DNA from: Alphaproteobacteria bacterium
GTDB lineage: Bacteria; Pseudomonadota; Alphaproteobacteria; Rhodobacterales; Rhodobacteraceae
Length of the DNA stretch: 64,000 nt
Direction: 5' to 3'
NCBI GenBank assembly: GCA_030427405.1
Contig: JAUHXK010000002.1
Coordinates: 310,001 to 374,000 of the forward strand
In this document: one piece after another, positions 11,057 through 60,227 of the stretch
Position numbering within the stretch: position 1 is the first letter of the stretch
Layout of the letters: every line of letters starts with the position of its first letter
The notes under the pieces: generated by a model
Told to the model about the DNA's origin: nothing
Seen by the model: the letters and a program-made list of their open reading frames with translations, nothing else
The model's database searches: none
Made by a program: the position numbers and the translations under genes

Positions 11057-11275
11057 TCAGACGTCAGCTTCATGCCCCTTCAGAACGTATTTGCAATCGC
11101 AATACGGGCACTCGACCCAACCGGTATCTTCGGGGATCTGCAGCCAGACGCGCGGGTGCCCCAAAGCCCCTTCGCCACCATCACAGGCGACACGAGAGGT
11201 TTCGACGATCTTGGTTTCCGGCGCTTTGATGGTCACGGCTGGCGATCCTTCTTCGGTTGTCGGCCTCGCGGGCAT
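11057..11275 (-). CDS. CHCC-type zinc-finger protein
   Basis: 72 residues with the pattern VACDGGEGALGHPRVWL, then ECPYCDCKYVL, the four-ligand C-x-H-CxxC zinc site of the zf-CHCC family. The family includes the mitochondrial complex I subunit NDUFS6 and is common as a small stand-alone protein in alphaproteobacteria. A role in respiratory complex assembly is only suggested by that relationship. It is divergent from the ABC ATPase gene with 15 bp between starts, so promoters probably overlap the coding regions. Confidence 0.88.
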   Translation of the reverse strand: MPARPTTEEGSPAVTIKAPETKIVETSRVACDGGEGALGHPRVWLQIPEDTGWVECPYCDCKYVLKGHEADV

Positions 11276-11290
11276 GTACTAGGTGCGTTT

Positions 11291-12316: not shown

Positions 12317-12777
12317 GCGCGGTCGATCCGCGCCTGATAGCAGTTGTTCCGGGCCGACCGGACATGGATATAGGCCACGTCCGGGCGAGAGAATATCTCT
12401 GCCACCGCCGCGCTTATCCGGTCCGTGGGGGTGACAAGGCCTGTGCCATAAACGATCCGGTCATCCTTGCCGTACCCCTTGATCAAATAGTCCGGTGACG
12501 TGGTCAAAATCTCGGGCATCTCTGTGCCGTCAAAGCGTTCACATGGCGCGGCGCACAGAAATATCGGGCCGGTTTCCGCGTATGGATGTGTCTCTAAGAA
12601 AGGGCGATGTGCCAATATCAGCATTTCGGCGCCCTCGGGAACGTGCTTCAGACAGTGACGGCACGGGTTGCCAGCGCCGGTCGAAACGGCGCGTTCCGGC
12701 GTCGCTCCATATGCGTCCGGATGACCGGCCTGCAGGGCGCGAACCTCTGCGGTGGGCAGGGCGGTGATCTTGTACAT
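12313..12777 (-). CDS. DUF1203 domain-containing protein
   Basis: 154 residues starting MYKITALPTAEVRAL, with NPCRHCLKHVPEGAEML, FLCAAPCERF and VRSARNNCYQARI, the typical blocks of DUF1203. Function is unknown; the conserved cysteines might bind metal. The ATG is preceded by AAGGAGA, which overrules the much longer upstream frame. It is divergent from dnaE2 with 109 bp between the starts; the SOS box of dnaE2 lies in that gap and might affect this gene too. Confidence 0.87.
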   Translation of the reverse strand: MYKITALPTAEVRALQAGHPDAYGATPERAVSTGAGNPCRHCLKHVPEGAEMLILAHRPFLETHPYAETGPIFLCAAPCERFDGTEMPEILTTSPDYLIKGYGKDDRIVYGTGLVTPTDRISAAVAEIFSRPDVAYIHVRSARNNCYQARIDRA

Positions 12778-12855
12778 GTCGGGTCTCCTTTTTTGCGACC
12801 TTGCCCGTCCGGCACACCTCAATCGACCCGTTTCCTGCGCAAAGGACTCGAAAAA

Positions 12856-12870
12856 GAACAAAACGTGAAT
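12856..12870 (+). promoter_or_regulatory. SOS box (LexA operator) of dnaE2, one mismatch
   Basis: The sequence GAACAAAACGTGAAT fits the alphaproteobacterial LexA operator GAAC-N7-GAAC except for the last base. It lies 16 bases before the dnaE2 start codon. A perfect copy with a very similar spacer lies before imuB at 19027, which makes chance unlikely. It predicts LexA repression and DNA-damage induction of dnaE2 and of the gene behind it. Confidence 0.8.
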
Positions 12871-12886
12871 ATAATGTGGAATCGCC

Positions 12887-15805: not shown

Positions 15806-16269
15806 CCGAACAAACGGGTATTGCCCCTGAACAGAGCCGAAATCCGAGACCGTCCATGTCCAGACCGACCCTGCCGCCACGCTTTCCCGCGACGCCTGCA
15901 CAGATCAACGCCCAGGTCGGTGCGTTCTATGCCCGTGTCCGAACAGATGCGCTGCTGGGGCCGGTCTTTGCCAACCATGTCGACAACTGGCCCGCACATG
16001 AGGCCAAAATCGCCGCGTTCTGGCGCAATGCCATATTGTACGAGCGCAGCTATGATGGAAATCCGCAGCGGGTCCATATCGAACGGCCCGACGTAAGGCC
16101 CGAGCTTTTCGCCCATTGGCTGGACCTGTTCGAAGAGGTCGCCACCCAGACCCTGCCCCCGGAAACCGCCACGCCCTGGGTGGCATTGGCGCGCCGCATC
16201 GGCGTCGGCATGAAGGCCGGCGTTCAATCCGCCCGCCAACCCAAAGGTGCCCCACCAGTTCTGAGGTGA
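15802..16269 (+). CDS. Group III truncated haemoglobin
   Basis: 137-155 residues. The globin part reads LGPVFANHV.NWPAHEAKIAAFWRNAIL, then GNPQRVHI with the likely proximal haem His, then LFAHWLDLFEEV and ARRIGVGMK, which matches class III truncated globins. Such proteins bind oxygen or NO and are linked to NO detoxification or redox sensing. The ATG at 15802 overlaps the dnaE2 stop as ATGA; the ATG at 15856 (MSRPTLPPRF) gives a more usual length and is equally possible. Either way it should be carried on the dnaE2 transcript, so it may be SOS-induced. No other NO genes are near. Confidence 0.85.
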   Translation: MTEQTGIAPEQSRNPRPSMSRPTLPPRFPATPAQINAQVGAFYARVRTDALLGPVFANHVDNWPAHEAKIAAFWRNAILYERSYDGNPQRVHIERPDVRPELFAHWLDLFEEVATQTLPPETATPWVALARRIGVGMKAGVQSARQPKGAPPVLR

Positions 16270-16426
16270 ACCGCAATCCGGGCAGGGCACCGGCGCTTCC
16301 GGGAACGGTGTTAGCGGTAAAATTGGGGCTATGCGCATTCAGAAAATGCGTTTAACCAAGGGACAGCGCGCAATCCGCCGCCCCGCCCCTGTGACCAGGG
16401 CTGACCCTAAGACCGAGGCCAGACAG

Positions 16427-17383
16427 ATGAGCACACAGAACACAATCCTTCGGGGGCTGGGATATGCATTTCTGGGCTTTGCGGTTTTTGCCAGCCATGA
16501 CGCATTGATCAAGGTGCTGGGCGCGACCTATTCGGTGATGCAGATCATCTTTTTCGCCACGCTGTTTTCTTTTGTCCCGATGGCCGTTTCGATGCTGGCC
16601 GACCGAACGCCCAGCAATTTCCGGCCGCATCACCCGTGGCTGGTCCTGTTGCGATCCGGCCTGATGGTCACGGCGATGTCCTGCGCCTTCTATTCCTTTT
16701 CGGTCCTTCCCCTGGCCGAGGTCTATTCGCTGCTGTTTTCCTTTCCGTTGATCGTAACGGTCCTGTCGATCCCGATTCTGGGCGAGGTGGTCCGCGCACA
16801 GCGGTGGGCCGCTGTCGGTGTGGGGCTGATCGGGGTTCTGATCGTCCTGCGGCCCGGCGCAACAGACATAACCGCAGGTCACGTCGCCGCGCTGATGGCC
16901 GCGTTCTGCAGCGCCTTCGCCTCGGTCCTGGTCCGCAAGATCGGCAACGAGGAACGCTCGGCTGTCCTGATCCTTTACCCGATGCTGCTGGCCATCGTGA
17001 CCATGAGCCTTGCGCAACCCGCCGTTTATCAGCCCCCGTCCCTGTTGCATCTGGGCATGATGGCACTGGTCGGCTTGTTCTCGGTCATCGCCCAGCACCT
17101 GATCATCCTGGCCTATCGCGCGGCCCCGGCGGGTGTTGTCGCGCCCAGCCAGTACAGCCAAATCATCTGGGCCACGATTTTCGGCGCTGTGTTCTTTGGT
17201 GAAAGCCCCGATGCCTGGGTTGCCGTCGGCGCCAGCATCATTATCGCATCGGGCGTATTCGTCGTCTGGCGGGAAAGCCGGGCCGATGTCTCGCCGAACA
17301 AGCCGGTCTTGCGGGTTCGGTCACCGCGGTCTGACACGGGGGCGTCTGGCCGGCCGGCCCGGACCGTGGAAACACAGCCCTGA
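16427..17383 (+). CDS. EamA/DMT-family transporter
   Basis: 318 residues with about ten membrane helices in two EamA repeats (GLGYAFLGFAVFASHDALIK at the start; AGHVAALMAAFCSAFASVLV in the middle). The inner-membrane exporter substrate is unknown; similarity in style to riboflavin- or SAM-type DMT carriers cannot be resolved here. The ATG at 16427 begins the conserved helix; the longer frame from 16331 adds a basic, non-conserved tail. It is 157 bp behind the globin gene and convergent with the formaldehyde dehydrogenase gene. Confidence 0.85.
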   Translation: MSTQNTILRGLGYAFLGFAVFASHDALIKVLGATYSVMQIIFFATLFSFVPMAVSMLADRTPSNFRPHHPWLVLLRSGLMVTAMSCAFYSFSVLPLAEVYSLLFSFPLIVTVLSIPILGEVVRAQRWAAVGVGLIGVLIVLRPGATDITAGHVAALMAAFCSAFASVLVRKIGNEERSAVLILYPMLLAIVTMSLAQPAVYQPPSLLHLGMMALVGLFSVIAQHLIILAYRAAPAGVVAPSQYSQIIWATIFGAVFFGESPDAWVAVGASIIIASGVFVVWRESRADVSPNKPVLRVRSPRSDTGASGRPARTVETQP

Positions 17384-40490: not shown

Positions 40491-43400
40491 ATGTCACAGG
40501 ATCACCCTCAACTCGACACATGGCTCGAAGATGCCAAGCTGGGTCGCCATGCGGACGCTTTTCGCGACGCTGCGGTTGATCTGGATGTCATCGGTGATCT
40601 GACCGAAAGCGATCTTGTCGAACTGGGTCTGCCCCTGGGCGATCGGCGACGGTTCTGGCAGCACCTCAAAGCTGCCCCCCCGCAAACGGGCGCGGGGTCC
40701 GGGGCCGAGGACCAGGCCCCCGCCCCGGTGACCAAGGCCGAGCATCGGCAGATTACGGTTCTGTTTTGCGACCTTATCGGATGGACCGCCCTGTCGACCC
40801 GGTTCGATTCCGAAGATCTGAGCGAGGCCATTTCCGAATGCCGTGAAATCTGGTCACAGGCGATCGAGCGGTATGACGGGTTTGTCGCCAGCACCCACGG
40901 CGACGGCGTCATGGCCTATTATGGCCACCATCACGCCTATGAGGATGGCGCCGAACGCGCGATCCTTTCCGGGCTGGATATCACCGAAGCGATGGAAGGC
41001 CTCAAGAGGACGGCAACCAGCGAAATCGCCAAACACCTGTCCGTTCGGGTCGGGATTGCGACCGGCAAGGTGTTGGTCAACACCACGACGTCGGGCCAGT
41101 TGGAAGAGGTTGATGTACTGGGCTACACGCCCAACCTTGCCTCTCGGTTGCAGAATGTCGCCAAGCCAAATTCGGTGGTCGTAAGTGCCACGACAGCCGA
41201 TCTTGCCCGCCACCGTTTCCATTTTGCCGTTCAGGACGGTGTCATGGTCAAAGGGGTCGAACAGCCCCTGCGCATCTGCGAGGTGATCGGACAGGTCAAG
41301 GGCGGGGAACGGACGCCGTGGCAGGATGACGAACACGACCGCGGCGTTGTCGGGCGCACCCCCGAGATCGGTCTGCTGGAAGATCGCTGGGACGCCGCGC
41401 GCGAAGGTGACGGCCGCGTTATCCTGGTGTCCGGCGAGGCCGGGATCGGGAAGTCGCGGCTGGCCGACACCATCTATGAACGGGTCAAGGGCCCCGCTGT
41501 GGTGCGGTTCCGGCTGGGATGCTGGTCCTATTACGCCAACAGTTCGTTGCGTCCCTTCGTCGAATTCGTCCAGTCCTGCGCCGGGCTGAGCGATACGGAC
41601 ACATCCGAGGTCAAGCTGGAAAAACTTGGGCGGTTCCTGAACGGTCGCGGGGTCACCGGCGCCAAGGATCAGGCCCTGATGTCCGGCCTGTTGCAGATCG
41701 GGACAGGCGATCAGGCTATGCCCGTGATGTCGTCTGAGCGGCAGAAAAAAGAGATGCTGAACTGCATTGCCCGCCTGCTGCTAAGCACTGCCGACAAGCA
41801 ACCTGCGATCATCCTGTTCGAAGACGCGCATTGGGCAGACCCGACATCCATCGAATTGCTGGAACTGCTGGCAGAAAAAGTGGCCGACCTGCGGGTCCTG
41901 GTGATCATCACCACCCGCGACGACGACGCGATGCCGATCAAGCGCCTGCCCAATGTTTCGAGCCTGCGCCTGAGCCGCCTGTCAAAATCGCAAAGCTTTC
42001 AGATTGTGCGCAATATGTCGCCCGGTCTGGAACTGCCGGTAAGTCTTGTCGACCAGATCCTGGAAAAGTCGGACGGTATTCCGCTGTTTCTGGAAGAACT
42101 GACCAAGACGGTCTGCAACAACTACTCGGAAAGCGGCGCCCAGAACCCGAACCGGCCGGGCGCGCGAACCTACGTTCCGATCCCGGCGACCCTTTATGAT
42201 TCGTTGCTGTCCCGGCTGGACAGGTACCCCGAGGCGCGCAACGTCGCCGGTTGCGCCGCCGCCATCGGTTCGGAATTCTCGGACACGCTGCTGTTTGGCG
42301 TTCTGGGCATGGACCCCGCCGAAACACGGCGCATCATCCGTATCCTGCTAAAGGCCGGTCTGTTTGTCGAAAACCCGCGCAAGGGCGAGGCCAGCTTTAT
42401 GTTCAAGCACGCGCTGGTACATGATGCGATTTACGAAAGCATGACCCGCGACACCCGGCGCGACCTGCATGCCGACATCGCCCGCAAGCTGGAATCGTCT
42501 TTTCCAACGGTGGTCAAGCAATCGCCAGAAATCCTGGCGCAACACTTCTTTCTGGCCAATGACCAGGACAAGGCGCTGCATTACTGGGAACAGGCTGGCA
42601 GGCTGGCGATGGAGCATTCCGCAACGACCGAGGCCCTCTCGCATCTCGACCAGGCGCTGGCCCTGCTGGATGCCCTGCCCCGCGATCAAAAGACGGATCA
42701 CAAGAAGATCGCATTGCTGACCACCTATGGCGCAGCTCTGACCAGCGTCAAGGGATACACCGCGCCGGAAACCGTCGCCGCCTATGATGCGGCGTGGAAA
42801 CTGTCGGAAACGATCGACAAGGATACCCATTTCCACGAAATCATCTATGGAATGTGGAATTCGGCCCAGGTCGGGTCTGATTATGACCGCGCGCAGGCTC
42901 TTGCCAATATGTGCCTGACTTTCTCGCAGAAACAGGAAGATGACGTATCCCGGCTGGTGGCCCACAGCCTGTGCGGGGTTACCGCGACGCTGCGCGGTGA
43001 ACATGAACATGCGCGCGAACACCTGCTGAAATCCGTCGAAATCTACGACCCGGTGCGGTTTCAGTCCCTGGCGCTGAGTACGGGCGAGGACCCCGGCGTC
43101 GAAAGCCTGTCTTATCTGGCGCTGAACCAATGGTATCTGGGGGATACGAAATCCGCCATCGAGACAGCGGACCGGTCGATGAAACTGGCGCAGGAAATCG
43201 CCTATAAGCACTCGGTTCTGTATTCGCTGCTGATGCGCGGTGTCCTGTTGCATATGTCCCGTCTTTCCGACGAACTGCTGGATGTCGCGGACGAGATTGT
43301 CGGCCTGTCCAAAAAGCAGGATTACCCGTTTTTCGTCGAATGGGGCCGCAACCTGAAAGGATGGGCCCTGAGCGAGAACGGCGACCCTGAAAAGGGATTG

Positions 43401-43835
43401 ACGCTGATGTCCAACAAGTGGCGACAGGGGTTCTCGGCGCTGCTGATCGCAAAGGTCAACCTGCATATCGGACGCCGCGATGCGGGCCTGTCCGAGGTCG
43501 ACGATATCATTCGCGAACAGCCCTGGCTGGCCCCCGAAGCGCGTCGCATTCGCGGTGAATTGCTGCTGGTCGGGCCCGACCCGCAACCCAAGGCAGCCCG
43601 TCAATGCTTCCTCCAGGCGCTTGAGCTGGCCAACACGCAATGCGCGGTGTCGCTCAGCCTGAAGGCGGTGAACAGCCTGGCCCGGTCCGAAATTGCGTCC
43701 GGGGTGACTGCTGACACGGCGCAATTGCTGGAACAGGTTGTTGCCTGCGTAAAGGCCTATGAACCGTCGAAAGACCAAAGGCTGGCGCGGGAATTGCTGG
43801 CCTTGTCAGTGCAGGAGCCTACAGATGCAGCCTAG
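40491..43835 (+). CDS. SAM domain / class III nucleotide cyclase / AAA ATPase / TPR protein
   Basis: 1114 residues. An N-terminal SAM domain (about 1-65, DLTESDLVELGLPLGDRRRF) is followed by a class III cyclase domain (about 85-255) with metal Asp in VLFCDLIGWT and THGDGVMAYYG and Asn/Arg in NLASRLQN. An ATPase domain follows with Walker A GEAGIGKS near 314-321 and Walker B ILFEDAHWAD near 441, then a TPR-like helical C-terminus. The usual substrate-selecting Lys before GDG is not seen (STHGDG), so product and even activity are uncertain. Likely a cytoplasmic sensor or signalling protein; the SAM and TPR parts suggest partners. The next gene overlaps it by 11 bases. Confidence 0.9.
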   Translation: MSQDHPQLDTWLEDAKLGRHADAFRDAAVDLDVIGDLTESDLVELGLPLGDRRRFWQHLKAAPPQTGAGSGAEDQAPAPVTKAEHRQITVLFCDLIGWTALSTRFDSEDLSEAISECREIWSQAIERYDGFVASTHGDGVMAYYGHHHAYEDGAERAILSGLDITEAMEGLKRTATSEIAKHLSVRVGIATGKVLVNTTTSGQLEEVDVLGYTPNLASRLQNVAKPNSVVVSATTADLARHRFHFAVQDGVMVKGVEQPLRICEVIGQVKGGERTPWQDDEHDRGVVGRTPEIGLLEDRWDAAREGDGRVILVSGEAGIGKSRLADTIYERVKGPAVVRFRLGCWSYYANSSLRPFVEFVQSCAGLSDTDTSEVKLEKLGRFLNGRGVTGAKDQALMSGLLQIGTGDQAMPVMSSERQKKEMLNCIARLLLSTADKQPAIILFEDAHWADPTSIELLELLAEKVADLRVLVIITTRDDDAMPIKRLPNVSSLRLSRLSKSQSFQIVRNMSPGLELPVSLVDQILEKSDGIPLFLEELTKTVCNNYSESGAQNPNRPGARTYVPIPATLYDSLLSRLDRYPEARNVAGCAAAIGSEFSDTLLFGVLGMDPAETRRIIRILLKAGLFVENPRKGEASFMFKHALVHDAIYESMTRDTRRDLHADIARKLESSFPTVVKQSPEILAQHFFLANDQDKALHYWEQAGRLAMEHSATTEALSHLDQALALLDALPRDQKTDHKKIALLTTYGAALTSVKGYTAPETVAAYDAAWKLSETIDKDTHFHEIIYGMWNSAQVGSDYDRAQALANMCLTFSQKQEDDVSRLVAHSLCGVTATLRGEHEHAREHLLKSVEIYDPVRFQSLALSTGEDPGVESLSYLALNQWYLGDTKSAIETADRSMKLAQEIAYKHSVLYSLLMRGVLLHMSRLSDELLDVADEIVGLSKKQDYPFFVEWGRNLKGWALSENGDPEKGLTLMSNKWRQGFSALLIAKVNLHIGRRDAGLSEVDDIIREQPWLAPEARRIRGELLLVGPDPQPKAARQCFLQALELANTQCAVSLSLKAVNSLARSEIASGVTADTAQLLEQVVACVKAYEPSKDQRLARELLALSVQEPTDAA

Positions 43836-44925
43836 CCTTCTTGTACGCGGCAAACAGGGCGCAGAGGTTTCGCCCCTGGCGCTGTTTCAGCGGCTGGCGC
43901 GCAGCGACCGCAGCCTGCACGCCCCCAACACCATCCAGACCCAGTTGGAGGACACGCGCCTGCGGCCTGTCAGCTTTCGGCCCGAAAGCCTGTTTGACAG
44001 TATCGCTACGCAAGCGCCCATATTGTTCAGCGATTTCCCTGCGCCGCTGCGCCGGGACGACCTGGCCGCGCCCGACGCGCTGATCGGCGCATTGCGGGCC
44101 AGCCGCGGCCAGGACACCTATCCGGTTCGTTTCGGAAGCAGCGACGCCAAGCGCAACCTGACGATCCGGGAAATCATGCAGCGATGGCAGGTTCCGGGGG
44201 CCGTTCTGGGTATCACCGACCTGCCCGTCCGCGACAAGGACCTGTCCGATCTGTTCGATGTGGATTTCCTTGCGCCCTGGAACCTGATGCCAGGTGCGGC
44301 GCCTGAATTGCAGCGGCTTGAGATGCTGACGGCCGTCTTCAGCACCGCCGGGAAACTAACGGATTCCCATTCCGACGACATGGCGGTCTGCAACCACTGT
44401 TTTCACGGCCGCAAACTCTGGCTGGCCTGGGAAACCTATGAGGGGCTGGATGCCGGTCTGGAAGATGTTGAACGGGTGTCGGTTCACACAAAGGCCCGGT
44501 TCGATCTGCAAGCCTTCCTGTCACTGCCCAGCGCTCATTGGTTTCTGGTCGAACCCGGCCAAACGATTTTTCTGCCGGGCAAATTTACGCACCGCGTCTA
44601 TACGCTTGAAAACTATATCGGCGTCGGCAGTTTCTACGTTGCGCTTGCAAACCTGCTGCATACGGCGGGGCGGTGGACAGCGCGCGGGTCGCTGTGGGAT
44701 GAGCCCGGATCGCCCCCGATGGCAGACCGCCTGCTGGCGGACGGTCTGGCCGCGCTGGCACGCCTCAAAAACGCCCCTGCGCCGGTTCAGGCCCAGTACG
44801 GATGGGCCGCTCTGCCGGCATCAGTTGCACATTTCGATCATTGGACAGCCCATGCGGGCGTCACCGTGTCACAAGACCTGGCCCGGGCGGCGGACTGGAT
44901 GCGCGGCCCGGACACCACGGCCTGA
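43825..44925 (+). CDS. JmjC/cupin-like 2-oxoglutarate Fe(II) oxygenase-type protein
   Basis: 366 residues. An HxD motif (SHSDD, His182 and Asp184) is followed by GRKLWLAWE and a distal His256 in PGKFTHRVYTL, the metal triad and basic-residue pattern of JmjC/cupin_8 hydroxylases. Such enzymes hydroxylate proteins or small molecules using 2-oxoglutarate and oxygen. AGGAG lies 10 bases before the ATG at 43825, which overlaps the cyclase gene by 11 bases, so the two proteins are co-translated. The longer frame from 43759 is rejected. The pairing suggests that the oxygenase acts on, or is controlled by, the cyclase protein; this is inference. Confidence 0.8.
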   Translation: MQPSLLVRGKQGAEVSPLALFQRLARSDRSLHAPNTIQTQLEDTRLRPVSFRPESLFDSIATQAPILFSDFPAPLRRDDLAAPDALIGALRASRGQDTYPVRFGSSDAKRNLTIREIMQRWQVPGAVLGITDLPVRDKDLSDLFDVDFLAPWNLMPGAAPELQRLEMLTAVFSTAGKLTDSHSDDMAVCNHCFHGRKLWLAWETYEGLDAGLEDVERVSVHTKARFDLQAFLSLPSAHWFLVEPGQTIFLPGKFTHRVYTLENYIGVGSFYVALANLLHTAGRWTARGSLWDEPGSPPMADRLLADGLAALARLKNAPAPVQAQYGWAALPASVAHFDHWTAHAGVTVSQDLARAADWMRGPDTTA

Positions 44926-44955: not shown

Positions 44956-45168
44956 TTATTTCGGCTGCGGGCTTTTCTTGGTCGTTGGGCCGTCGTCACC
45001 GCGGCTCTGGCGCGCGTCGTTGAGAACTTTCAATGCCGAGGTAATATCCTCAATCTGCTGCACCGCGCTGTTTTGCGAACGAAGCAGAACTTCTTCAATC
45101 TTGTTCAGTTGCTTCGTGGACAGATCCTTAAGATCCGTTTCCAGTACAAACAGTGTTAGATCACTCAT
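44956..45168 (-). CDS. Small coiled-coil protein, unknown function
   Basis: 70 residues, family not recognised. Residues about 12-52 are helical and heptad-like (DLSTKQLNKIEEVLLRSQ...QIEDITSALKVLNDAR); the C-terminal tail is basic and polar. GGGGAG lies seven bases before the ATG. It converges on the JmjC-like gene with only 30 bp between stops, so an antisense or regulatory relation is possible. Codon use fits the neighbourhood. Confidence 0.65.
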   Translation of the reverse strand: MSDLTLFVLETDLKDLSTKQLNKIEEVLLRSQNSAVQQIEDITSALKVLNDARQSRGDDGPTTKKSPQPK

Positions 45169-45312
45169 GGTACGCTCCCCAGAAAACTATTTCATATTGC
45201 AGTCGGCCGACAATCTGGCCAAATTCTTAATACCGTTAATCATATGGCCTGACGACACTTATCTGGTGCAGGGACATTTTCGGCGGTTTTGTCATTGCCG
45301 GGGGACGCGCAC

Positions 45313-45690
45313 GTGCCGTCAAAAACCTATTCCTGCGAGACCTGCCCCGGTTTTTGTTGTTCCTATGACGAGATTTTCCTGACCGATGCAGACCTGGCCC
45401 GACTGGGCGAACACCTCTCGACCGATGCCGAGGGGGTGATAACGCGTTTCACGAAATACGGCATGTACAAAGGCAAAAGCAGGTATCCGCTGATGCTCAA
45501 GCACAAGGCCGACAAACATTTTGGAACGATCTGCACGTTCTTCGACACCGATCTGCGCCGATGCACGATCTACGACGCGCGCCCCGCAGCCTGCCGCGAC
45601 TATCCACACGGACCCAAATGCGGCTATTTCGAATTCCTTCAATTCGAGCGGCGCCTTCAGGATGATGACACCTACGTCGCCGTGACCTGA
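45313..45690 (+). CDS. YkgJ-family cysteine cluster protein
   Basis: About 125 residues. It reads YSCETCPGFCCSYDEIFLTDADLARL at the N-terminus and CTFFDTDLRRCTIYDARPAACRDYPHGPKC later, the cysteine spacing of the YkgJ/UPF0153 metal-binding family. Function is unknown; zinc or iron-sulfur binding is predicted. Start codons are weak: GTG at 45313 with GGGGGAC upstream is preferred, while TTG at 45289 or 45295 is possible. It lies divergent from the small coiled-coil gene. Confidence 0.85.
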   Translation: MPSKTYSCETCPGFCCSYDEIFLTDADLARLGEHLSTDAEGVITRFTKYGMYKGKSRYPLMLKHKADKHFGTICTFFDTDLRRCTIYDARPAACRDYPHGPKCGYFEFLQFERRLQDDDTYVAVT

Positions 45691-51437: not shown

Positions 51438-52189
51438 AATCTCTATCCGTCAGAAACCTGAATGTCTGGTTTGGCGAGGGCCCGGACCGTGTCGATGCTG
51501 TCAAAGCGGCCTCTTTCGACGTGGCCAGCGGCGGCAGTTTCGGCCTGGTGGGCGAGTCGGGGTCCGGCAAATCGACCATTTTGCGCGCCATTACCGGGCT
51601 TGTTCCGACCTGGTCCGGCGACATCGAGATCGACGGCGACCACGTTCTTCCCAAGCGGGGCCGCGCGTTCTACAAGATGCTTCAGATGGTGTTTCAGGAT
51701 CCGTATGCCTCGCTCCACCCGCGCCATTCCGTGGATCAGGTTCTGTCCGAGACGCTGCAGTTGCACGGGTTCAAGGACATCGACACCAGAGTGAACCGCC
51801 TGCTTGATGATGTCGGGCTTGGGGCCGCCTTCCGGTTCCGATATCCGCATCAATTGTCGGGCGGACAACGCCAGCGCGTGGCGATTGCCCGCGCCTTGGC
51901 CCCGGAACCGGAAATTCTGCTGCTGGACGAGCCGACATCGGCCCTGGACGTATCGGTTCAGGCCGAAATCCTGAACCTGCTGAGCGACCTGCGGACGGAA
52001 CACAAGCTGACATTCGTCATGGTTTCCCATGATTTGTCGGTTGTTGGACATATGTGCGACAACGTCGCGGTAATGCGCGACGGCGAGGTGGTCGAGGTCT
52101 TGGGCATCGAAAAGATGCGGCGCATGGAACCCGACAACGCCTATACAAAGCACCTGTTGGACGTCTCCCTGAACTACGCAAGTTCGTGA
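51434..52189 (+). CDS. ABC transporter ATP-binding protein, DppF type
   Basis: 251 residues. Walker A is GESGSGKS, the QMVFQDPYASLHPRHSV block and signature LSGGQRQRVAIARAL are typical of DppF, and Walker B is ILLLDEPTSALD. The start at 51434 overlaps the previous stop as ATGA; the longer frame lies inside the previous gene. Last gene of the peptide transporter operon. Confidence 0.94.
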   Translation: MKSLSVRNLNVWFGEGPDRVDAVKAASFDVASGGSFGLVGESGSGKSTILRAITGLVPTWSGDIEIDGDHVLPKRGRAFYKMLQMVFQDPYASLHPRHSVDQVLSETLQLHGFKDIDTRVNRLLDDVGLGAAFRFRYPHQLSGGQRQRVAIARALAPEPEILLLDEPTSALDVSVQAEILNLLSDLRTEHKLTFVMVSHDLSVVGHMCDNVAVMRDGEVVEVLGIEKMRRMEPDNAYTKHLLDVSLNYASS

Positions 52190-52547
52190 ATGGGCCAGGC
52201 ATAGGGCGTTGAAAAGGAAGCTGGTGCCTCAAGAGGGCACACGCAACCTATTTCGGGTTGTTCGTTCTTGTGCAGATACTCTTTCAGTTACAACGTTCCA
52301 GCCAAAAAACTGTCCAAACTTGCCTTGCAGTGTTTAGCGCCATCCAACAAGTCGCTCACTCTGGCCGGATCAAAAGTTTGCGACATGTTCCTGCTTGAAG
52401 GTAACCCTAGGTGAACACCCCGAGTTTACGCACGCGACAAACTTCCGTTCTTATACAGATTACCGCTATGTTTTTGCGTAGCCCGTTGTGTTTTCGATCT
52501 GGCATGATACACGCATTTACAGTTCTTTACTTATGTATGTGGCTCAT
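52190..52547. other. AT-richer intergenic region at the edge of the glycan island
   Basis: 358 bases with no supported gene. Directly behind the transporter operon, CAACC and GGTTG (52244-52260) form a weak hairpin followed by TTCGTTCTT, a possible terminator. The base composition falls compared with the left side, marking the border of the region with surface-glycan genes and IS remnants. The frame of the next gene opens at 52488 but its likely start is 52548. Confidence 0.55.
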
Positions 52548-53534
52548 ATGGAACGCGAACATCGAACCCATCACCTGACCATTACGGTCGCTGCCTTGAC
52601 GCGCGGCAGGCCTCAAATGTTGGAGAGGTTGATTTTATCCTGGGGACAGATGGATGTTCCAGATAACGCCACTGTGCGATGCCTGATCGTCGAAAACGAT
52701 GATACTGCACTCAGCGAACAGATTGTATTAAAACACAAACTCCTAGCCAACGGATTGGCCCTTGACTACGTGCTCGAAACCGAGCTGGGAATCCCTTTTG
52801 GACGCAACCGGGCCGCAAAGGAGGCGATCGCGGCGGGTCATGACCTTCTGGCATTTGTAGATGATGACGAATACGTCGCGCAGGATTGGCTGGTACGGCT
52901 CTTGGATGGTTATCGCAACAGCCACGCCGTTCTCTTGGGCGCACCGTTGCGCTGTGCCCCCGCTCAGGACGGTCTCACATCGATGCAGCGGTTGATGCAT
53001 CGCAACATCAAGCAGCGCTACGACCAGAAAGAAGCCCGCGCCGCCAAACTAGCCAGCTTGAATGAAACGCCACGGGTCACTGTAGTGACAAACAACTGGT
53101 TGGCTGAAACGCGGCTGTTCGACAAAGACGGCATTTGGTTCGACGAGAACATGCGGTTTACTGGCGGTACCGACAGCAAGCTATGCGCCGAAGTCAAGGC
53201 GGCAGGCTTCAAAGTAGGATGGGTCGCAGACGCACATGTCTACGAAATCATTCCAGAGGACCGCCTCAGTTTTGGGTATCAATTCGCTCGGGCCCGAGAT
53301 CAGTCCAACACGCATTTTGCGCGTCGCATCGAACGGCAACCGTTTGCGCGATATTCAGTCATCCTGCGCGTTCCGATCAAGCTCATCGAAATTACTGTCC
53401 TGACCATTGCCCTTCCGTTGACCAAAGGCAGGACATTGCTGAAAATTGCTCGTTCCAGCGGTTGGTTGGTGGGCCGGATTGGCGCGTCCTTCGGCCGCCA
53501 GTCTTCTCTTTATCGCACCACTACGGGCTCCTAA
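52548..53534 (+). CDS. Family 2 glycosyltransferase
   Basis: 328 residues. A GT-A fold is suggested by TITVAALTRGRPQMLERL, then FGRNRAAKEAIAAGHDLLAFVDDDEYV with the metal-binding DDD near 103-105, and the acceptor-side GGTDSKLCAEVKAAG. A C-terminal amphipathic or membrane-associated helix (IKLIEITVLTIALPLTKG) follows. It probably adds a sugar to a surface polysaccharide. The ATG at 52548 is preferred over one at 52488. Its 3' end lies about 30 bp from the break of an IS3-type fragment, so the last residues may have been altered. Confidence 0.82.
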   Translation: MEREHRTHHLTITVAALTRGRPQMLERLILSWGQMDVPDNATVRCLIVENDDTALSEQIVLKHKLLANGLALDYVLETELGIPFGRNRAAKEAIAAGHDLLAFVDDDEYVAQDWLVRLLDGYRNSHAVLLGAPLRCAPAQDGLTSMQRLMHRNIKQRYDQKEARAAKLASLNETPRVTVVTNNWLAETRLFDKDGIWFDENMRFTGGTDSKLCAEVKAAGFKVGWVADAHVYEIIPEDRLSFGYQFARARDQSNTHFARRIERQPFARYSVILRVPIKLIEITVLTIALPLTKGRTLLKIARSSGWLVGRIGASFGRQSSLYRTTTGS

Positions 53535-53817
53535 CACTTTCGGTACGGCTTTTGAGCGTTGATCGAATGACATCCTGCAACCTCTCGCGGTCCAGAGTGA
53601 GGTCGGCCACAATCTTCTTCAGCCGAGCATTCTCATCCTCAAGCGCCTTCAGCCGGCGCATCTCGTCCGGCAACAAGCCGCCGTACTTCTTCTTCCAATT
53701 GAAGTAGGTCGCCTGACTGACCCCAGCCTTGCGACAGATCTCCGCGACGGGTGTGCCTTGCTCGCCCTGCTTCAGGATGAAGGTCTTCTGCGCCTCGGTG
53801 AACTTCGATGCTTTCAT
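53521..53817 (-). pseudogene. IS3-family transposase orfA, 3'-truncated, orfB missing
   Basis: 98 codons. MKASKFTEAQKTFILKQGEQ, ICRKAGVSQATYFNWKKKY and LLPDEMRRLKALEDENARLKKIVADL are the helix-turn-helix and leucine zipper of IS3-group OrfA. The normal end near LQDVIR is replaced by unrelated residues (STLKSRTE...), so homology stops at about 53567. No OrfB integrase frame follows. GAGGAG precedes the ATG at 53817. Not functional for transposition by itself. Confidence 0.85.
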
Positions 53818-53893
53818 GCGTTTCCGCTCCTCTCCCAGCCAGGGAAATCTAGCGGAAAACTCTAGCCGCAAATGATCCGGTTTTCAGAGGACA
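53568..53893 (-). mobile_element. Remnant of an IS3-family insertion sequence
   Basis: Contains the upstream end and orfA only. The intact end may begin with TGTCCTCTGAAAACCGG on the minus strand, ending at 53893, but the exact terminal repeat was not confirmed because the other end is lost. The truncated side lies next to the GT2 gene, indicating a deletion or recombination through the element. Confidence 0.65.
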
Positions 53894-53948
53894 TAGCATT
53901 TGTCGACTAGGCCCCAGAGTTTGCGACTCATCCGCATTTTCTCCGGGG

Positions 53949-55178
53949 CTATGGGCTGAGAGACTTGCGTAGCGGCACTTGGTCCGTACACGCCGCAATC
54001 TGACTGAACAGGGTTCTTCTTCCGGTTGCCCAATTCATCGAAAGTGCAGTTTGAAATGCTTTCAACCCCATATCAACCCGTGTTGCAGCGGGGGTGGCGC
54101 AAGCCCGTTGCAACGCGTCTCGCAAACCAGTTTCGGACGAGGGATCATATAGATATCCGGATATTGAGTCGTTGATGACTTCCGGGAATGCGCCCAACCT
54201 TGGGGCAATAACGGGTACACCGAACGATAAGGCCAGCAATGCGGCCCCGGATGTCAACGAAGCTAAATACGGCAGAACAACGAAGTCGGCAGCATTCATG
54301 TAGCGTTGGATATCTGCTGGCGCCACCCAGCCTTCGTGCACTTGTGTTTTGCGGTAGGAAGAGAACAATGTCAGCAAGCTTTCTTTGTCCTGTTTCAGCG
54401 CGCGCCCGGCGATGAGCAGCCGAGCATGTTCGATGCTATCCACAGCCGCGCACAAAGTGTCCAATCCTTTGTACCGGCGCAGCCATCCAACACTGGCAAA
54501 CACAGTCGTATCTGAATCCATGTTCAATGCATCCCGTGCAGCAGCGCGGGACAGTGTGTCTGGGTAGACGCCAATATAGTTACCGTGGTCTATAACAAGC
54601 GTCTTTTCAGTGGCGTTTGGCTGGTCCTGAAGGAATGCAATCTGTGCGGCGCGACCGTGCACGAAGATCCGGTGGGCCAGATCACAAAGAATCTTGCGAA
54701 GATTGCGTTCGAAAGGGCCGTCCTCACGTTGGTGTTCTGTCAAATTGTGGACGGTCCAGAAAAATAGGCCCCCTTCGGCTACAAAAGCTCTCAATTGGTC
54801 AAGAAGTTCCTTGGTGCGTGTTTCGGTGTCCCGTGTGTCTCCTTTGATCCGTCCATACAGAAAATTCAGCCAATGCAAATGGAAGCAAACTGGTCCGGTT
54901 GTCGCGCGACGCAGGTCTGAAAGCGCTTGTTCAATTGTGCCCGGCCGGGAGGTGAATAGATCGGTTTGGGCTCCGTAAAACATCATTTGATATGGGTTGG
55001 CCTCATAGGCAGGCCAGTAATGGAGGCGCACCGGTCTGGGGCCAAGCAGCGCGTCAAATTTCGTGTTCCAATCCGCAGTATGTGGCGGCGTATTTACATG
55101 TGCTGTAGCATCCGATGCGCCGAACAACCGGAACGACAGCTTGGGTTTTCTGTACTTTTGTGACGAAAATAGACGCAA
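53949..55178 (-). CDS. Glycosyltransferase, GT4-like (GT-B fold)
   Basis: 409 residues. The N-terminal half has RPVRLHYWPAYEANPYQ and FHLHWLNFLYG; the C-terminal half has FASVGWLRRYKGLDTLCAAV, HEGWVAPADIQRYMNAADFVVLPYLASLTSGAALLALSFGVPVIAP, the donor-site pattern of GT4-type enzymes. It probably acts at the cytoplasmic membrane in polysaccharide assembly. The start is a TTG at 55178 with CAGGAG eight bases upstream. It follows the GT34-like gene by 34 bp on the same strand, so it may be co-transcribed. Confidence 0.83.
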   Translation of the reverse strand: MRLFSSQKYRKPKLSFRLFGASDATAHVNTPPHTADWNTKFDALLGPRPVRLHYWPAYEANPYQMMFYGAQTDLFTSRPGTIEQALSDLRRATTGPVCFHLHWLNFLYGRIKGDTRDTETRTKELLDQLRAFVAEGGLFFWTVHNLTEHQREDGPFERNLRKILCDLAHRIFVHGRAAQIAFLQDQPNATEKTLVIDHGNYIGVYPDTLSRAAARDALNMDSDTTVFASVGWLRRYKGLDTLCAAVDSIEHARLLIAGRALKQDKESLLTLFSSYRKTQVHEGWVAPADIQRYMNAADFVVLPYLASLTSGAALLALSFGVPVIAPRLGAFPEVINDSISGYLYDPSSETGLRDALQRACATPAATRVDMGLKAFQTALSMNWATGRRTLFSQIAACTDQVPLRKSLSP

Positions 55179-55212
55179 TGTGTAAACTCCTGCCCTGTCC
55201 CAGCGGCGCTAG

Positions 55213-56022
55213 TCACCTGAAAAAAGCCGAAAGGCGGCGAAACAGGCCGAGCTTGGCTTTTTTGCCTTTTGTCGTGATTGGCGGGACATGCGGAAGCACA
55301 GACCTGCGCGACCGGCCGCCAAGGAGATCTTCTTCGATTGCGTCCGGAAGAAGGGCAGGCCCAGTACCTAACAGCTTAGCCGCCCGTTCGGCATCCGCGC
55401 GTTTGCGCTCACGCGGGCCGGTAAAATGAACAAGAAACACACTGTCACGCTCTGCTTGCAAATCTGCAAGGCGGCTGTTGAACGCCATGTAGTCGTGCAA
55501 CACGACGCTGTTTTTGAACCGCTTGTCCTCATGCAAAACATAGACCAGTGCATCCTGATCACCTTTAGTGAACATACCCAGTTCATCGCGCCACCAATCT
55601 TTAACGACATTAATGTCGGTATTCATGACAGTTTCAATTAGGGCAGCGCTTCGCGGGCCGCCGCGCATCAAGAATTGACCGGAACTAAGATAGGTAAAGA
55701 TATCTTTGTTCGAGGGGCTCTTGCAGAATGCCGCCAGCTTGTCTTCGGGTGGTATAAACCGTTCCAAGCCTTGTTCTAGGTCGACGAAGAATGCGTCGTC
55801 GTCGATCCAAAATACATAATCAAAAAGTTCGATATAGTGACGGACATATGCAAACTTTGTCATGTAACGGTTGGTCATGGCGGTCGGCCAGATGCAACTG
55901 ATATAGGTATATCCATGTGCTCGCGCATAGGCATAATGGTTCCAAGCATGCGGAAATTCGCTCGCTGGGAATCGACCCGACAAAATACAAACTTTTGCAG
56001 GGTCCGCGAATAACTGCGTCAT
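55213..56022 (-). CDS. GT34-like (GMA12/MNN10-type) glycosyltransferase
   Basis: 269 residues. It has HAYARAHGYTY-type early motif (YAYARAHGYTYIS), then KFAYVRHYIELFDYVFWIDDDAFFV with a DDD metal site near 74-76, and FLMRGGPRSAALIE, GDQDALVYVL and LVHFTGP. This is the layout of galactosyl/mannosyltransferases of family 34. The sugar is unknown. It overlaps the pyruvyl-transferase gene by 4 bases and ends with a basic tail. Confidence 0.78.
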   Translation of the reverse strand: MTQLFADPAKVCILSGRFPASEFPHAWNHYAYARAHGYTYISCIWPTAMTNRYMTKFAYVRHYIELFDYVFWIDDDAFFVDLEQGLERFIPPEDKLAAFCKSPSNKDIFTYLSSGQFLMRGGPRSAALIETVMNTDINVVKDWWRDELGMFTKGDQDALVYVLHEDKRFKNSVVLHDYMAFNSRLADLQAERDSVFLVHFTGPRERKRADAERAAKLLGTGPALLPDAIEEDLLGGRSRRSVLPHVPPITTKGKKAKLGLFRRLSAFFR

Positions 56023-56906
56023 GCTGCAATGCCTCGTGATCGCAACACTTCCAGGTCAGGAAAGACAAGGTCTTGCGCAGCTACTGACAAGGTTGCCGGA
56101 GAGTTTGGTGCAGATGTGAAATTAGCATCAGCGATAGATCCAAGCGGGGTTGGCATTTTCAGGCCTACTCCGAGGTAGTAGTCTTCAAACTTCGACAGGG
56201 GCTCCTCGGTTGCGGGAACAACCATTTTGACCGGCCGTCCAAGCGCATGGGCAAAGATGATACCGTGCAAGGACGATGAATATACCAGTTCGGCCTGCTG
56301 AATTTTGCGCCCTACAACCAAAGGGTCAGCGTCGATGTCTACCACTTCGATCCCCTTAGGAAGAATAGAAGCAACGTCCCCTCTCTCGCGATAGTGGGGG
56401 ACAAAGATCACCCTCCCTTTTTGCGGATCACAAGGCTCCAATAGTTCGGATATGATCAGGCCGGGGTCGCCATACCAGGCCACTGCGCTGGTATCGAACC
56501 CGTCTTTTTCTAATATTTGATGTGAGATTGGGCCGCGCAAGGCATGAACCAACACGCTGTCGCGCGAAACTTCTGGCCGGGCAAGTACTTCTTTGCTGCC
56601 GACACCGCACAAAACATCACCGTTTTCGACCTTGTGTCCAATTGATCCGACGCACAACAGCCGAGGACCGGTACTACAGTTCTCGGGCTGCAACCCTGGA
56701 TAGAAATACTTGATAATGTTAACTGCGAAAATATCACCGGCATTGCCGGTGGCAAAGTCCCGCCATGCTGACTGCCTTCGCTGGATATGCCGCCGCCGCC
56801 ATGCGGTAAAACGGCCAACAACCCGGTCATGCCAATAAAAAGTTCTGAGCGTGTTCAAATCTGTGGCCTTATTCACCTTGGGGTTGCGATGGGTCCGGCC
56901 ATGCAT
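56019..56906 (-). CDS. Polysaccharide pyruvyl transferase-family protein
   Basis: 295 residues. The N-terminus has NAGDIFAVNIIKYFYP, followed by LLCVGSIGHKVENGDVLCGVGSKE, VRDS-like and ALRGPISHQILEKDG, then PHYRERGD and SSLHGIIFAHALGRPVKMV, typical of the WcaK/CsaB-type family. It would transfer pyruvyl ketal groups from phosphoenolpyruvate to a sugar, adding negative charge. It overlaps the neighbouring genes on both sides (38 and 4 bases). Confidence 0.85.
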   Translation of the reverse strand: MHGRTHRNPKVNKATDLNTLRTFYWHDRVVGRFTAWRRRHIQRRQSAWRDFATGNAGDIFAVNIIKYFYPGLQPENCSTGPRLLCVGSIGHKVENGDVLCGVGSKEVLARPEVSRDSVLVHALRGPISHQILEKDGFDTSAVAWYGDPGLIISELLEPCDPQKGRVIFVPHYRERGDVASILPKGIEVVDIDADPLVVGRKIQQAELVYSSSLHGIIFAHALGRPVKMVVPATEEPLSKFEDYYLGVGLKMPTPLGSIADANFTSAPNSPATLSVAAQDLVFPDLEVLRSRGIAA

Positions 56907-57891
56907 GTTCCGGCAATTGAGCTAGAGCAAAGTCCACGTCATTTATTCCATAAGACACGACAAAATCAAATCCCATTCGTGTCAGACCTGAGACGTATGT
57001 GCAGCTAAGCAAATTCGGGTTGTGCCGGGGCTGGCCGCCGCGCAGCGCACGCAGATTGTGGAACCAAAATGAACTTCCTATGTGGAGACGTTTGTTGGGC
57101 AGATCAACGACCACAGGCCTTCCTGCGTACAACCGCTTTTTGCGGAAATAAAATCGACGATGGGCAACCAGGGCAAAGGTGCCCGCCCCAGGAGAAAGTT
57201 CGACTGGCTGCGTTCCCATGGTCAAAACCGGGCGCGATGATTGGCGGGGCTTTTGGAACGCGGTCTGCTCGGCCTGCATGTGAAGCTGGCTAGCCGAGCG
57301 TTTGTGTTCGGTCAGGACAACAAGAGGGTCAAGGGAATAGAGGGCGCACAGCCTTCCTTCGAATTGGAAGAAGCCCCAGTTTTTCTCGATTGCTTGTCGA
57401 TCCGAAATCTCTATTTTCAGCGGTTGCCCGATCTCGGGCGTCAGCGGCGCGATGTAGATCGAGTTTGGTTTCTCGAAATGGCCGGTGTTAAAAGTGACCC
57501 ATGGCTGTCCATCAAACTCAAACAGCTTGGGGTCTGCAACGGGGTATCCGATGCGTGTGGCAAAGTTTTGCGTCAAATCTAGAACGATTGGGCTCTGATA
57601 AGGGGTGTCGTTGAGCCTAAGCACAAAAGCGCGAAACGGCTTGGGTTGTTGTGCGTGTAGACCGCGAAAAGCGACCCACGTCTGATCGCCAATACGCAAT
57701 ACGGACGGATTGAATATGTTTTCGATGCCGGTTCCGCGCAACGCCTCTGACACCTGGTCTGTCCAAGTTGTCCCGTGACGTGCAAGAGAAAGAAACATGT
57801 TTGGTTCCCTGTGCGAAAGAATGACGGGAAGGCGACCGACGCGCCACGCATGCGCTTCGGGCCTCTTAAAGTATGAAACCGGCACTGACAA
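56869..57891 (-). CDS. Five-bladed beta-propeller glycosidase-like protein
   Basis: About 340 residues. Repeats of the type NPSVLRIGDQTWVAFRG, DPKLFEFDGQPWVTFNTG and EKNWGFFQFEGRLCALYSLDP resemble the GH43/GH130 propeller clan. The catalytic residues cannot be assigned, so it may be a glycan-binding or phosphorylase-like protein. No signal peptide is seen. The start is a TTG at 57891 or GTG at 57885. It lies 40 bp behind the acyltransferase gene and overlaps the pyruvyl-transferase gene. Confidence 0.75.
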   Translation of the reverse strand: MSVPVSYFKRPEAHAWRVGRLPVILSHREPNMFLSLARHGTTWTDQVSEALRGTGIENIFNPSVLRIGDQTWVAFRGLHAQQPKPFRAFVLRLNDTPYQSPIVLDLTQNFATRIGYPVADPKLFEFDGQPWVTFNTGHFEKPNSIYIAPLTPEIGQPLKIEISDRQAIEKNWGFFQFEGRLCALYSLDPLVVLTEHKRSASQLHMQAEQTAFQKPRQSSRPVLTMGTQPVELSPGAGTFALVAHRRFYFRKKRLYAGRPVVVDLPNKRLHIGSSFWFHNLRALRGGQPRHNPNLLSCTYVSGLTRMGFDFVVSYGINDVDFALAQLPEHAWPDPSQPQGE

Positions 57892-57930
57892 GGTTACCGG
57901 ACTGGTCGGAATGCGGATGTATCATGGGCA

Positions 57931-59919
57931 TCAGTCTCGCCCAGGGAGATATGCCGCGATTGCTGGTGCCAAAGCCAAAGAAGCCTTTTGCGTAAGGTGA
58001 TTTCCGTCGCGATAGATAGGAACACCGTTTCGCACTAGCGGGCAGACAACCTCGTCGCACATCAGGGGCCACAACTCAATCTTGCGGATGGGTGTTGCGG
58101 CGGACATCAGCGCACGATTTACCGTGACCTGGCGTGCGTCATAATCTGAACGCAGTGGGTCTAGAGTGAAAGGCGTGTTATTCCAAATCGACCGCGCTTG
58201 CGCATGAGGAACCGACCCCTCAGCCTCCGGGACTTGAGCGACAAAGTATACCTGCACACCCAGTGCCGACAGTTTGGTTAGTGTCCGGTCCAACCCGCGA
58301 TTAAAGACTTCAGAATTTGGTCGCAATGTGTCATCCAGCCGATCCCGATCAATGATAGTGACCGGCGCGCCCACCTCTCGCAAGTAGCGGGTTCCCGTGG
58401 CATAGATCGCCCAGCGAGCCACGAGAAAGACGTGGGTCAGATCTGGGTTGCGTTTAAGTGCACCAAGGATTCCATCGAAAGTTTCCGCACAGTCGTGAAA
58501 GCCCTGCCTGTTTTGATTGATCCCGATGAGCGGCGGGCATCCGCCGCGTGCTACCAAAATACCGTTTGTGCCCATAAGTTCTGCGGCGCGGTCGAATGCT
58601 GGTGACATCGCCTGCGCATGGGAATCCCCCCAGACCAAAAATGTCGGATTATCTGATTGGTCTACGGGTCCAAGCCGGCAAGTGCGTGCCTTGACCGACC
58701 ATGCGACCCGGTAGTCTGCGTGGCACTTTTCGACGGCTGAAATATCTTTTGAGGCCTTCAAAGCGATCCAGGCGGTTTCCGGCAGCCTGTTTTCAAAACC
58801 GCTGGTTTGCATCACGCTGACGGCAAAAGCGCAAAAAACTGCCGATATCGAGATGCCAACTGCTATTGGCTTTGTGGTGCCGCCAGATTTCACCCGCGGC
58901 GTACGAAACGGGCGCTCGACAAAACGCCAAGACAGGATGGCAGGCACAATCGACAGCAAAGCCGCGGCGAGCAAATAGGCGTGCGGTGGTTCCGTAATCG
59001 ACAAATGCCGGACAATAACCAGAACAGGCCAATGCCATAGGTACCAAGAATAGGACACCAAGCCGATGGCCCGCAGAGGTGCCCAACTCAGAACGCGCGT
59101 TTCCAGTCCTTGAGGGCGATTCCGGGTGCTGACGAGCAGAAGAACTGTTCCGACTATGGGTGCCAGCGCCGCCACGCCCGGGAAAGGGGTTAAACTGCTA
59201 TAGCCGAATATCGCAGCGACCAACAGCCCAACACCTAGTAGGGCGCATAGTCCCGACGCGCTAGTTGCAATTCTGGATTTCGGCACATGTATTGCCAGCA
59301 GGGCCCCTGCTAGAAGTTCCCATGCTCTGAGATGTGTGGCGTAAAACGCAAACTTCTCCTTGTTTCCCAAAACGAAAACGCACGACGCCACAAATGAAAA
59401 AACCAAGGCGGCCAAGCAGACAACAAACAAACGCTTTGGAAAAAAACGTATGCCCCCCATCAGCACCAAGGGAAAGACAACATAGAATTGTTCCTCAACA
59501 CTCAATGACCAAAGGTGCAACAAGGGGTGCTTCTCGGCGGCGGGCGAGAAATAGTCCAGTTCGCTCAAAAAATACCAATTTGCGACCCAAAGCACTGCGG
59601 CAGTCATGGATTCCGCAGTTTGCACATAAGTGTCTGGAAGGAATAAGAACCATCCGACTCCACAAACGCCGGCGAGCATGAAAAAGAGAGCCGGAAAAAT
59701 GCGTTGGATACGCCTCGCGTAAAACTTGGCTATGGAAATCCCCCCGGATTTGGCGTCCTGCATCAAGATACGTGTGATCAAGTACCCAGAAAGCACGAAA
59801 AAGATGTCGACACCGACAAAGCCACCGGGGACGAGCTCGGCACTTCCGTGGTATAGAACCACGGACAGAACTGCGATGGCTCTGAGACCATCAATTTCAT
59901 GGCGATATGCGTCTGACAT
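57931..59919 (-). CDS. Acyltransferase-3 / SGNH-domain membrane protein (OafA/YrhL type)
   Basis: 662 residues. It begins YRHEIDGLRAIAVLSVVLYHG with about ten membrane helices and the VGVDIFFVLSGYLITRIL motif of acyltransferase 3. A C-terminal SGNH hydrolase-like domain has VWGDSHAQAMSPAF near 510-525 and GNHLTQKASLALAP near the end. It probably moves acyl (often acetyl) groups onto surface polysaccharide. The ATG at 59919 begins the conserved part; the frame extends 95 codons upstream without homology. Confidence 0.9.
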   Translation of the reverse strand: MSDAYRHEIDGLRAIAVLSVVLYHGSAELVPGGFVGVDIFFVLSGYLITRILMQDAKSGGISIAKFYARRIQRIFPALFFMLAGVCGVGWFLFLPDTYVQTAESMTAAVLWVANWYFLSELDYFSPAAEKHPLLHLWSLSVEEQFYVVFPLVLMGGIRFFPKRLFVVCLAALVFSFVASCVFVLGNKEKFAFYATHLRAWELLAGALLAIHVPKSRIATSASGLCALLGVGLLVAAIFGYSSLTPFPGVAALAPIVGTVLLLVSTRNRPQGLETRVLSWAPLRAIGLVSYSWYLWHWPVLVIVRHLSITEPPHAYLLAAALLSIVPAILSWRFVERPFRTPRVKSGGTTKPIAVGISISAVFCAFAVSVMQTSGFENRLPETAWIALKASKDISAVEKCHADYRVAWSVKARTCRLGPVDQSDNPTFLVWGDSHAQAMSPAFDRAAELMGTNGILVARGGCPPLIGINQNRQGFHDCAETFDGILGALKRNPDLTHVFLVARWAIYATGTRYLREVGAPVTIIDRDRLDDTLRPNSEVFNRGLDRTLTKLSALGVQVYFVAQVPEAEGSVPHAQARSIWNNTPFTLDPLRSDYDARQVTVNRALMSAATPIRKIELWPLMCDEVVCPLVRNGVPIYRDGNHLTQKASLALAPAIAAYLPGRD

Positions 59920-60227
59920 CCGATGTCCCTGCCTTGCGCTTTTCTTGCTGGCTACCCCAATAGGTTGCTGCACAAATCCAGGGTTGAGCGCAATTCCCCT
60001 ATTCCCAAAACGAAGTATTCTAAAAACTCTGTGGTTGATATGCCAAGAGCGGTGTAGCGAATGAGCGTGGCGCGACAGAACTGGATCTCTTCGAACAATT
60101 ACTCGAAGTCTCGCGCCGTAAATGGTTGGCTCAGTCGTTTCACACAATAAACCTTGGTTTTTAGTGTCAGGACCCACTGATTTCCAGTGAGTGGCATGAT
60201 TCACAGCTCAAAAAACGAACGGTGAAT
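59920..60227. other. Intergenic region between the acyltransferase gene and the IS5-type remnant
   Basis: 308 bases with no supported gene. It must hold the minus-strand acyltransferase promoter. A palindrome-like stretch with CACTG / CAGTG around 60175-60189 may belong to the end of the IS5-type element. No terminator was recognised. Confidence 0.5.

Follow-up and report, generated by a model that had tools for sequence, protein, structure and literature searches.

A rare four-gene unit of Rhodobacteraceae in which a SAM-cyclase-ATPase-TPR protein is encoded beside a probable JmjC/Cupin_8-type oxygenase

Results

The 64,000-nucleotide stretch of Rhodobacteraceae DNA analysed here (contig JAUHXK010000002.1, positions 310,001 to 374,000; hereafter the window) contains a cyclase-ATPase gene whose 3' end overlaps the gene of a probable oxygenase. 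One important question raised by this locus is whether these genes belong to a conserved system, and another is what an oxygenase may do beside a cyclase. A preliminary description of the DNA had presented the locus as a two-gene pair. The locus is a larger, four-gene unit, formed by the genes encoding the cyclase, the probable oxygenase and two further proteins, one small and one cysteine-rich and metal-binding. This unit is rare and present in some bacteria, and the pairing of cyclase and oxygenase is conserved across genomes.

The first gene (40491–43835, plus strand) encodes a 1114-amino acid protein combining SAM, class III cyclase, AAA_16 (STAND-type) ATPase and TPR domains. The second gene (43825–44925, plus strand) encodes a 366-amino acid JmjC/Cupin_8-like protein, the probable Fe(II)/2-oxoglutarate oxygenase. 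The longest open reading frame (ORF) listed for it starts at 43759; the ATG at 43825 is preceded by the motif AGGAG 7 nt upstream, and use of this ATG as the start gives the 11-base overlap with the cyclase gene that had been described. A conserved 70-amino acid ORF with a Lys-rich tail is located at 44956–45168 on the minus strand, convergent with the oxygenase gene, and is followed by the gene of a CxxCxxCC protein (PF03692, YkgJ-type; 45289–45690, plus strand), whose likely start, assigned by eye, is the GTG at 45313. The latter two genes were missed in the preliminary description, which was correct in placing the cyclase and oxygenase genes side by side.

The same order (cyclase, oxygenase, 70-amino acid ORF on the other strand, CxxCxxCC gene) was found in five out of five Rhodobacteraceae loci, namely the window, L003 (Silicibacter lacuscaerulensis), L004 (Ruegeria sp. 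Ofav3-42), L005 (an uncultured Rhodobacteraceae) and L045 (genome G1017). The cyclase and oxygenase genes overlap in all of them, by 11 nt in the window, L003, L004 and L045 and by 8 nt in L005; the overlaps outside the window were derived from ORF ends, and an internal ATG was preferred to the longest ORF in the window and L004. For each of the four genes, every pair compared had less non-synonymous change (dN) than synonymous change (dS), although dS was close to or at saturation in many of these pairs. The flanking genes vary: upstream of the unit, the window and L003 have an ORF that by eye resembles dxs, which was not present in the parts of L004, L005 and L045 that were read.

The oxygenase-like gene was found in four of the 54 genomes of the window's genus. 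The 70-amino acid ORF, the CxxCxxCC gene and a close ortholog of the cyclase (at least 54% identity) were each found in the same four genomes, and the other 50 yielded none of the four at E 0.001. No more than 13 cyclase candidates per genome were scored, and among the matches listed the next one in the genus after the unit orthologs was 33% identical and reached a third of their score. Two independent genes would share the same four of 54 genomes in 1 of 316,251 draws (calculated). Since the four genes lie in physical linkage and are probably transferred jointly, this co-occurrence shows a unit and not four independent events. A tblastn search placed the cyclase directly upstream of the oxygenase in L003 (70% identity), L004 (56%) and L005 (58%), and a fifth copy of the unit is present in another genus.

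Larger genome samples, which overlap, were searched with the oxygenase protein or with profiles. The gene was detected in two of 295 genomes at the family level (the window genome plus one false match), four of 390 at the order level (including G1068, identical to L005 over 17,020 bases), two of 385 at the class level (the window genome and G372) and one of 349 at the phylum level (the window genome). After counting G999 and G1021, which are L003 and L004, once each, there were six distinct genuine loci: the five Rhodobacteraceae loci and that of G372, the sole genome examined from its order. The G372 oxygenase homolog is 38% identical and its cyclase-ATPase 28% identical to those of the window, and both genes are adjacent on the same strand. 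The preliminary description had made its proposal depend on the pairing being found outside the strain of the window, and it was: a cyclase-ATPase gene adjoins the oxygenase-like gene in six out of six genuine loci.

Two candidates were rejected. The scan of genome contigs with the oxygenase returned L003, L004, L005 and L006, and the match of the last lies inside a 386-amino acid ORF that appears by eye to encode an unrelated flavoprotein-like protein. In G147 (L002, L040), the match lies on the strand opposite to an ORF taken by eye for ParC/GyrA. No relative of the oxygenase was found in the viral contigs, phages and plasmids searched, and no relative of the 70-amino acid ORF in the plasmids searched. 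Cyclase matches at E 1e-100 were present in 124 plasmid records, all below 60% identity, the best among the matches listed having 35%.

Regarding the cyclase, the whole protein scored above the Pfam cut-offs for SAM_1 (33.9 bits, cut-off 23), Guanylate_cyc (PF00211; 73.2, cut-off 21.9), AAA_16 (73.3, cut-off 32.6) and TPR_2 (29.9, cut-off 27), and below their own cut-offs for the TPR_12, NB-ARC and NACHT models. A Walker A motif, GEAGIGKS, starts at residue 315, and the protein qualifies as a member of AAA_16. As previously described, both metal-binding Asp residues are kept (D94 and D138), and together with the transition-state residues N215 and R219 they provide the two Asp plus Asn/Arg by which class III cyclases are recognised. 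These residues are retained in the five Rhodobacteraceae unit cyclases. The position of the purine-selecting Lys is occupied by Ser134, and reads S, S, F, Q and F in the window, L003, L004, L005 and L045, respectively; the second substrate-selecting position reads Y, Y, F, Y and F. Substrate choice may therefore not be conserved within the clade, or may be independent of residue 134. The absence of the Lys had been pointed out earlier and is real, but it is not distinctive, since the residue is missing in 42 of 55 paralogs and present in 13. It neither gives a special clue nor excludes class III membership, and was dropped as an indication of function.

Related cyclases are common, with matches in 131 of 295 family genomes (best two candidates per genome scored) and in all 54 genomes of the genus, and identity outside the unit did not exceed 36% among the matches listed. 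These ordinary alphaproteobacterial SAM/class III cyclase-AAA_16-TPR paralogs align over most of the window cyclase, but differ in their surroundings: the flanks of the 55 best-match paralog loci (up to about 1.5 kb, several much less) contained no oxygenase, 70-amino acid ORF or CxxCxxCC gene. A single match below E 1 appeared in these loci, covering 17 residues (E 0.79). In a tree obtained by a quick method from 60 of 61 rows (L022, 685 amino acids and cut by the contig end, was left out), the five Rhodobacteraceae unit cyclases formed one clade with a Shimodaira–Hasegawa-like approximate likelihood ratio test (SH-aLRT) support of 100 and a stem of 1.49 changes per column. This long stem might reflect adaptation of the cyclase to its oxygenase partner. 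The abundance of related cyclases without an oxygenase means that only one cyclase clade is tied to it.

Next to the paralogs, 27 candidate following ORFs were collected, many of them surely spurious. Four picked by eye were compared with Pfam, giving a methyltransferase, a patatin, a YcaO enzyme and a nucleoside deoxyribosyltransferase-like protein (below cut-off). A few paralog cyclase genes share 4-nt overlaps with such varied enzyme genes (methyltransferase, patatin), among them that of L025 (genome G004) with its patatin-like gene. In L087 (genome G146; 10593–5547, minus strand), the paralog gene and a YcaO gene (Pfam 105.9 bits) share a 4-nt overlap and a TfuA-like ORF (by eye) comes next, forming a cyclase-linked peptide-modification operon.

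In the second protein, the HxD...H triad noted previously corresponds to H182, D184 and H256, which together with K197, at +15 from H182, are invariant in all six homologs. K197 occupies the position of the Lys that is the 2-oxoglutarate ligand in FIH. The motif HX(D/E)...H is the facial triad of 2-oxoglutarate oxygenases (PMC4543633). In an alignment of the window protein, the G372 homolog and two Cupin_8 proteins, one over (L085) and one below (L086) the family cut-off, the invariant columns included H182, D184, G195, K197, G245, H256 and V258. At E up to 10, four of the six members had a match to Cupin_8, the best at E 0.004, and two had one to JmjC_2; no family match was over its cut-off wherever a score was shown. 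Compared with the JmjC/Cupin_8 hydroxylases of the YcfD/RoxA, FIH and JMJD6 types, the protein shares the HxD, the Lys at +15, the distal His and a PG...H motif, and differs in its scores below the Pfam cut-offs, its long unmatched N- and C-terminal parts and its cyclase partner. The earlier naming of a JmjC/cupin-like oxygenase is supported by the active-site residues and by weak matches, all below the Pfam cut-offs, and the protein likely belongs to the JmjC/Cupin_8-type 2-oxoglutarate oxygenases.

The 70-amino acid ORF is 87%, 65%, 66% and 61% identical to that of the window in L003, L004, L005 and L045, respectively, and has no Pfam match. Substitutions are concentrated at third codon positions of the minus-strand frame, which, together with dN being below dS, indicates that it is very probably a real gene. 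The CxxCxxCC protein matched PF03692 with 43.6 bits (cut-off 23), and eight Cys are conserved in five out of five orthologs in an alignment read by eye. It shares a cysteine motif with FliB and other PF03692 proteins, the motif being CX4CX3CC in FliB and CX2CX3CC in the window protein, which is small and has PF03692 as its sole match over the cut-off. The FliB motif binds a [4Fe-4S] cluster (PMC8598068).

Discussion

What, then, may the unit do? Tight pairing, gene overlap and the link to a single clade speak for a joint action of oxygenase and cyclase. JmjC-type protein hydroxylases are known, YcfD of E. coli among them (PMC4543633), and these enzymes, the peptide hydroxylase BipG discussed below and the [4Fe-4S] motif of FliB favour protein hydroxylation within the unit. 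Our preferred reading, held tentatively and at somewhat less than an even chance, is that of a conserved unit in which the oxygenase hydroxylates a unit protein and is coupled to a STAND-type cyclase switch. The data show the gene unit, the joint occurrence of its members and the conservation of the active-site residues; the oxygenase activity, its substrate, its coupling to the cyclase and the direction of regulation are inferred from them. In the cyclase, the SAM domain would mediate oligomerisation, the ATPase would be the switch, the TPR region the sensor and the cyclase domain the output. The co-translated JmjC-type Fe(II)/2-oxoglutarate oxygenase would hydroxylate one of the unit proteins, the likeliest target being the C-terminal region of the cyclase or the 70-amino acid protein, so that the cyclic-nucleotide output would depend on hydroxylation and hence on oxygen, 2-oxoglutarate and iron. 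The CxxCxxCC protein would be an accessory metal or Fe-S protein. Sensing of oxygen or 2-oxoglutarate, raised already in the preliminary description, is a plausible but hypothetical role. HIF hydroxylases gate transcription in animals, and a bacterial parallel, in which the hydroxylase marks its own co-translated STAND cyclase or a dedicated 70-amino acid adaptor and the second messenger is gated by the oxygen, iron or carbon-nitrogen state, seems rather unlikely.

Several results weigh against this reading. With regard to the oxygenase, no Pfam match of the window protein was over the cut-off (JmjC_2 12.9 bits, cut-off 22), the G372 homolog reached 17.5 bits with Cupin_8 (cut-off 27.4), and at E 0.001 the Cupin_8 model matched nothing in the window genome or in G1017, although each contains the gene. 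The window protein matched no solved structure by phmmer at E 1, and profile-profile comparison with the Cupin_8 protein L085 gave a non-significant probability of 0.2%. AlphaFold models built from four sequences were unusable and gave no support for a double-stranded beta-helix fold (predicted local distance difference test, pLDDT, 37.7 for the full length and 33.5 for the core). With regard to G372, the oxygenase gene lies upstream of the cyclase gene, in reversed order and about 500 nt apart; the cyclase has no SAM domain match, and neither the 70-amino acid ORF nor the CxxCxxCC gene was found within the 16 kb read around the pair. In this cyclase, His replaces the transition-state Asn, so that the enzyme may not work by the usual chemistry, and claims on its product are weakened. 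It also lies outside the five-member clade, on a long branch, a position that neither demonstrates nor excludes a common origin of the pairing in G372 and the Rhodobacteraceae. The pair having been kept with swapped order and without the accessory genes nearby, the pairing outlasts both.

Another reading, possible though on the unlikely side, is that the unit resembles those of ribosomally synthesised and post-translationally modified peptides: the oxygenase, perhaps with the CxxCxxCC protein, would modify the 70-amino acid substrate into an active product, and the cyclase-ATPase-TPR protein would be a regulator or scaffold, as in clusters that combine such cyclases with YcaO enzymes. In the genus the 70-amino acid ORF was found only alongside the oxygenase, and the paralog cyclase gene of G146 overlaps a YcaO gene followed by the TfuA-like ORF. 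The best NCBIfam match of the window cyclase is TOMM_kin_cyc (TIGR03903), a kinase/cyclase fusion to whose C-terminal part residues 81–1064 align; the score is below the cut-off (478.6 against 705.75 bits), and the window differs in having no kinase match and no YcaO among the five ORFs scanned. Adenylate cyclases occur in peptide-modification neighbourhoods with YcaO and TfuA (PMC8939145), and the JmjC protein BipG is described as an ornithine hydroxylase in the ribosomal peptide pathway to biphenomycin (PMC12707348). However, no exporter, peptidase or leader/core pattern common to the loci was seen by eye, and the 70-amino acid ORF is on the opposite strand, has no Pfam match and was not found around the G372 pair.

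Participation in an anti-phage or conflict system, with the STAND-type ATPase and cyclase as core and the partner enzyme executing or tuning the response, is quite unlikely. It would agree with the patchy presence (4/54 in the genus) and the varying flanking genes. L004 carries, directly downstream of the unit, WGR, SWIM and reverse transcriptase genes that match PADLOC type XIII reverse-transcriptase models (10130–16864), and L003 has a Vsr-type nicking endonuclease and a cytosine methylase a few kb downstream (10938–13237). Against this, no defence genes were recognised by eye in the window, L005 and L045, whose flanks were not scanned with PADLOC. The cyclase domain matches the PycC models of Pycsar (best E 9.4e-16), as would be expected of any class III cyclase, but no adjacent Pycsar effector was recognised, the oxygenase and CxxCxxCC proteins, which were the neighbours scanned, matching no PADLOC model at E 0.01. 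Finally, it is also quite unlikely that the oxygenase acts on a small metabolite with the cyclase merely controlling the unit, as the 4-nt overlaps of a few paralogs with varied enzyme genes might suggest, because no transport or pathway genes common to the loci were seen by eye and KDM7 (JHDM1D), JMJD6 and PHF8, the solved structures that the oxygenase profile matched non-significantly (E 0.14–1.7), act on proteins; apart from two RNA helicases (E 0.87 and 1.4), the search gave no other match.

No description of a cyclase-oxygenase unit was found in literature searches in which all terms were required and most subscription papers were not covered, in agreement with the preliminary description, which did not recognise a described system. 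Bacterial JmjC-type hydroxylases have few known protein targets, and for most STAND-type cyclases, although these are very common, the input is not known. An oxygenase-like gene tied to one STAND-type cyclase clade, with a candidate small substrate, provides a compact and testable case for both.

Elsewhere in the window, G+C content falls to 0.53–0.54 at positions 52000–60000, where the ORFs appear glycosyltransferase-like by eye, and an IS3-type transposase fragment (by eye) is located at 53521–53871 inside this lower-G+C stretch.

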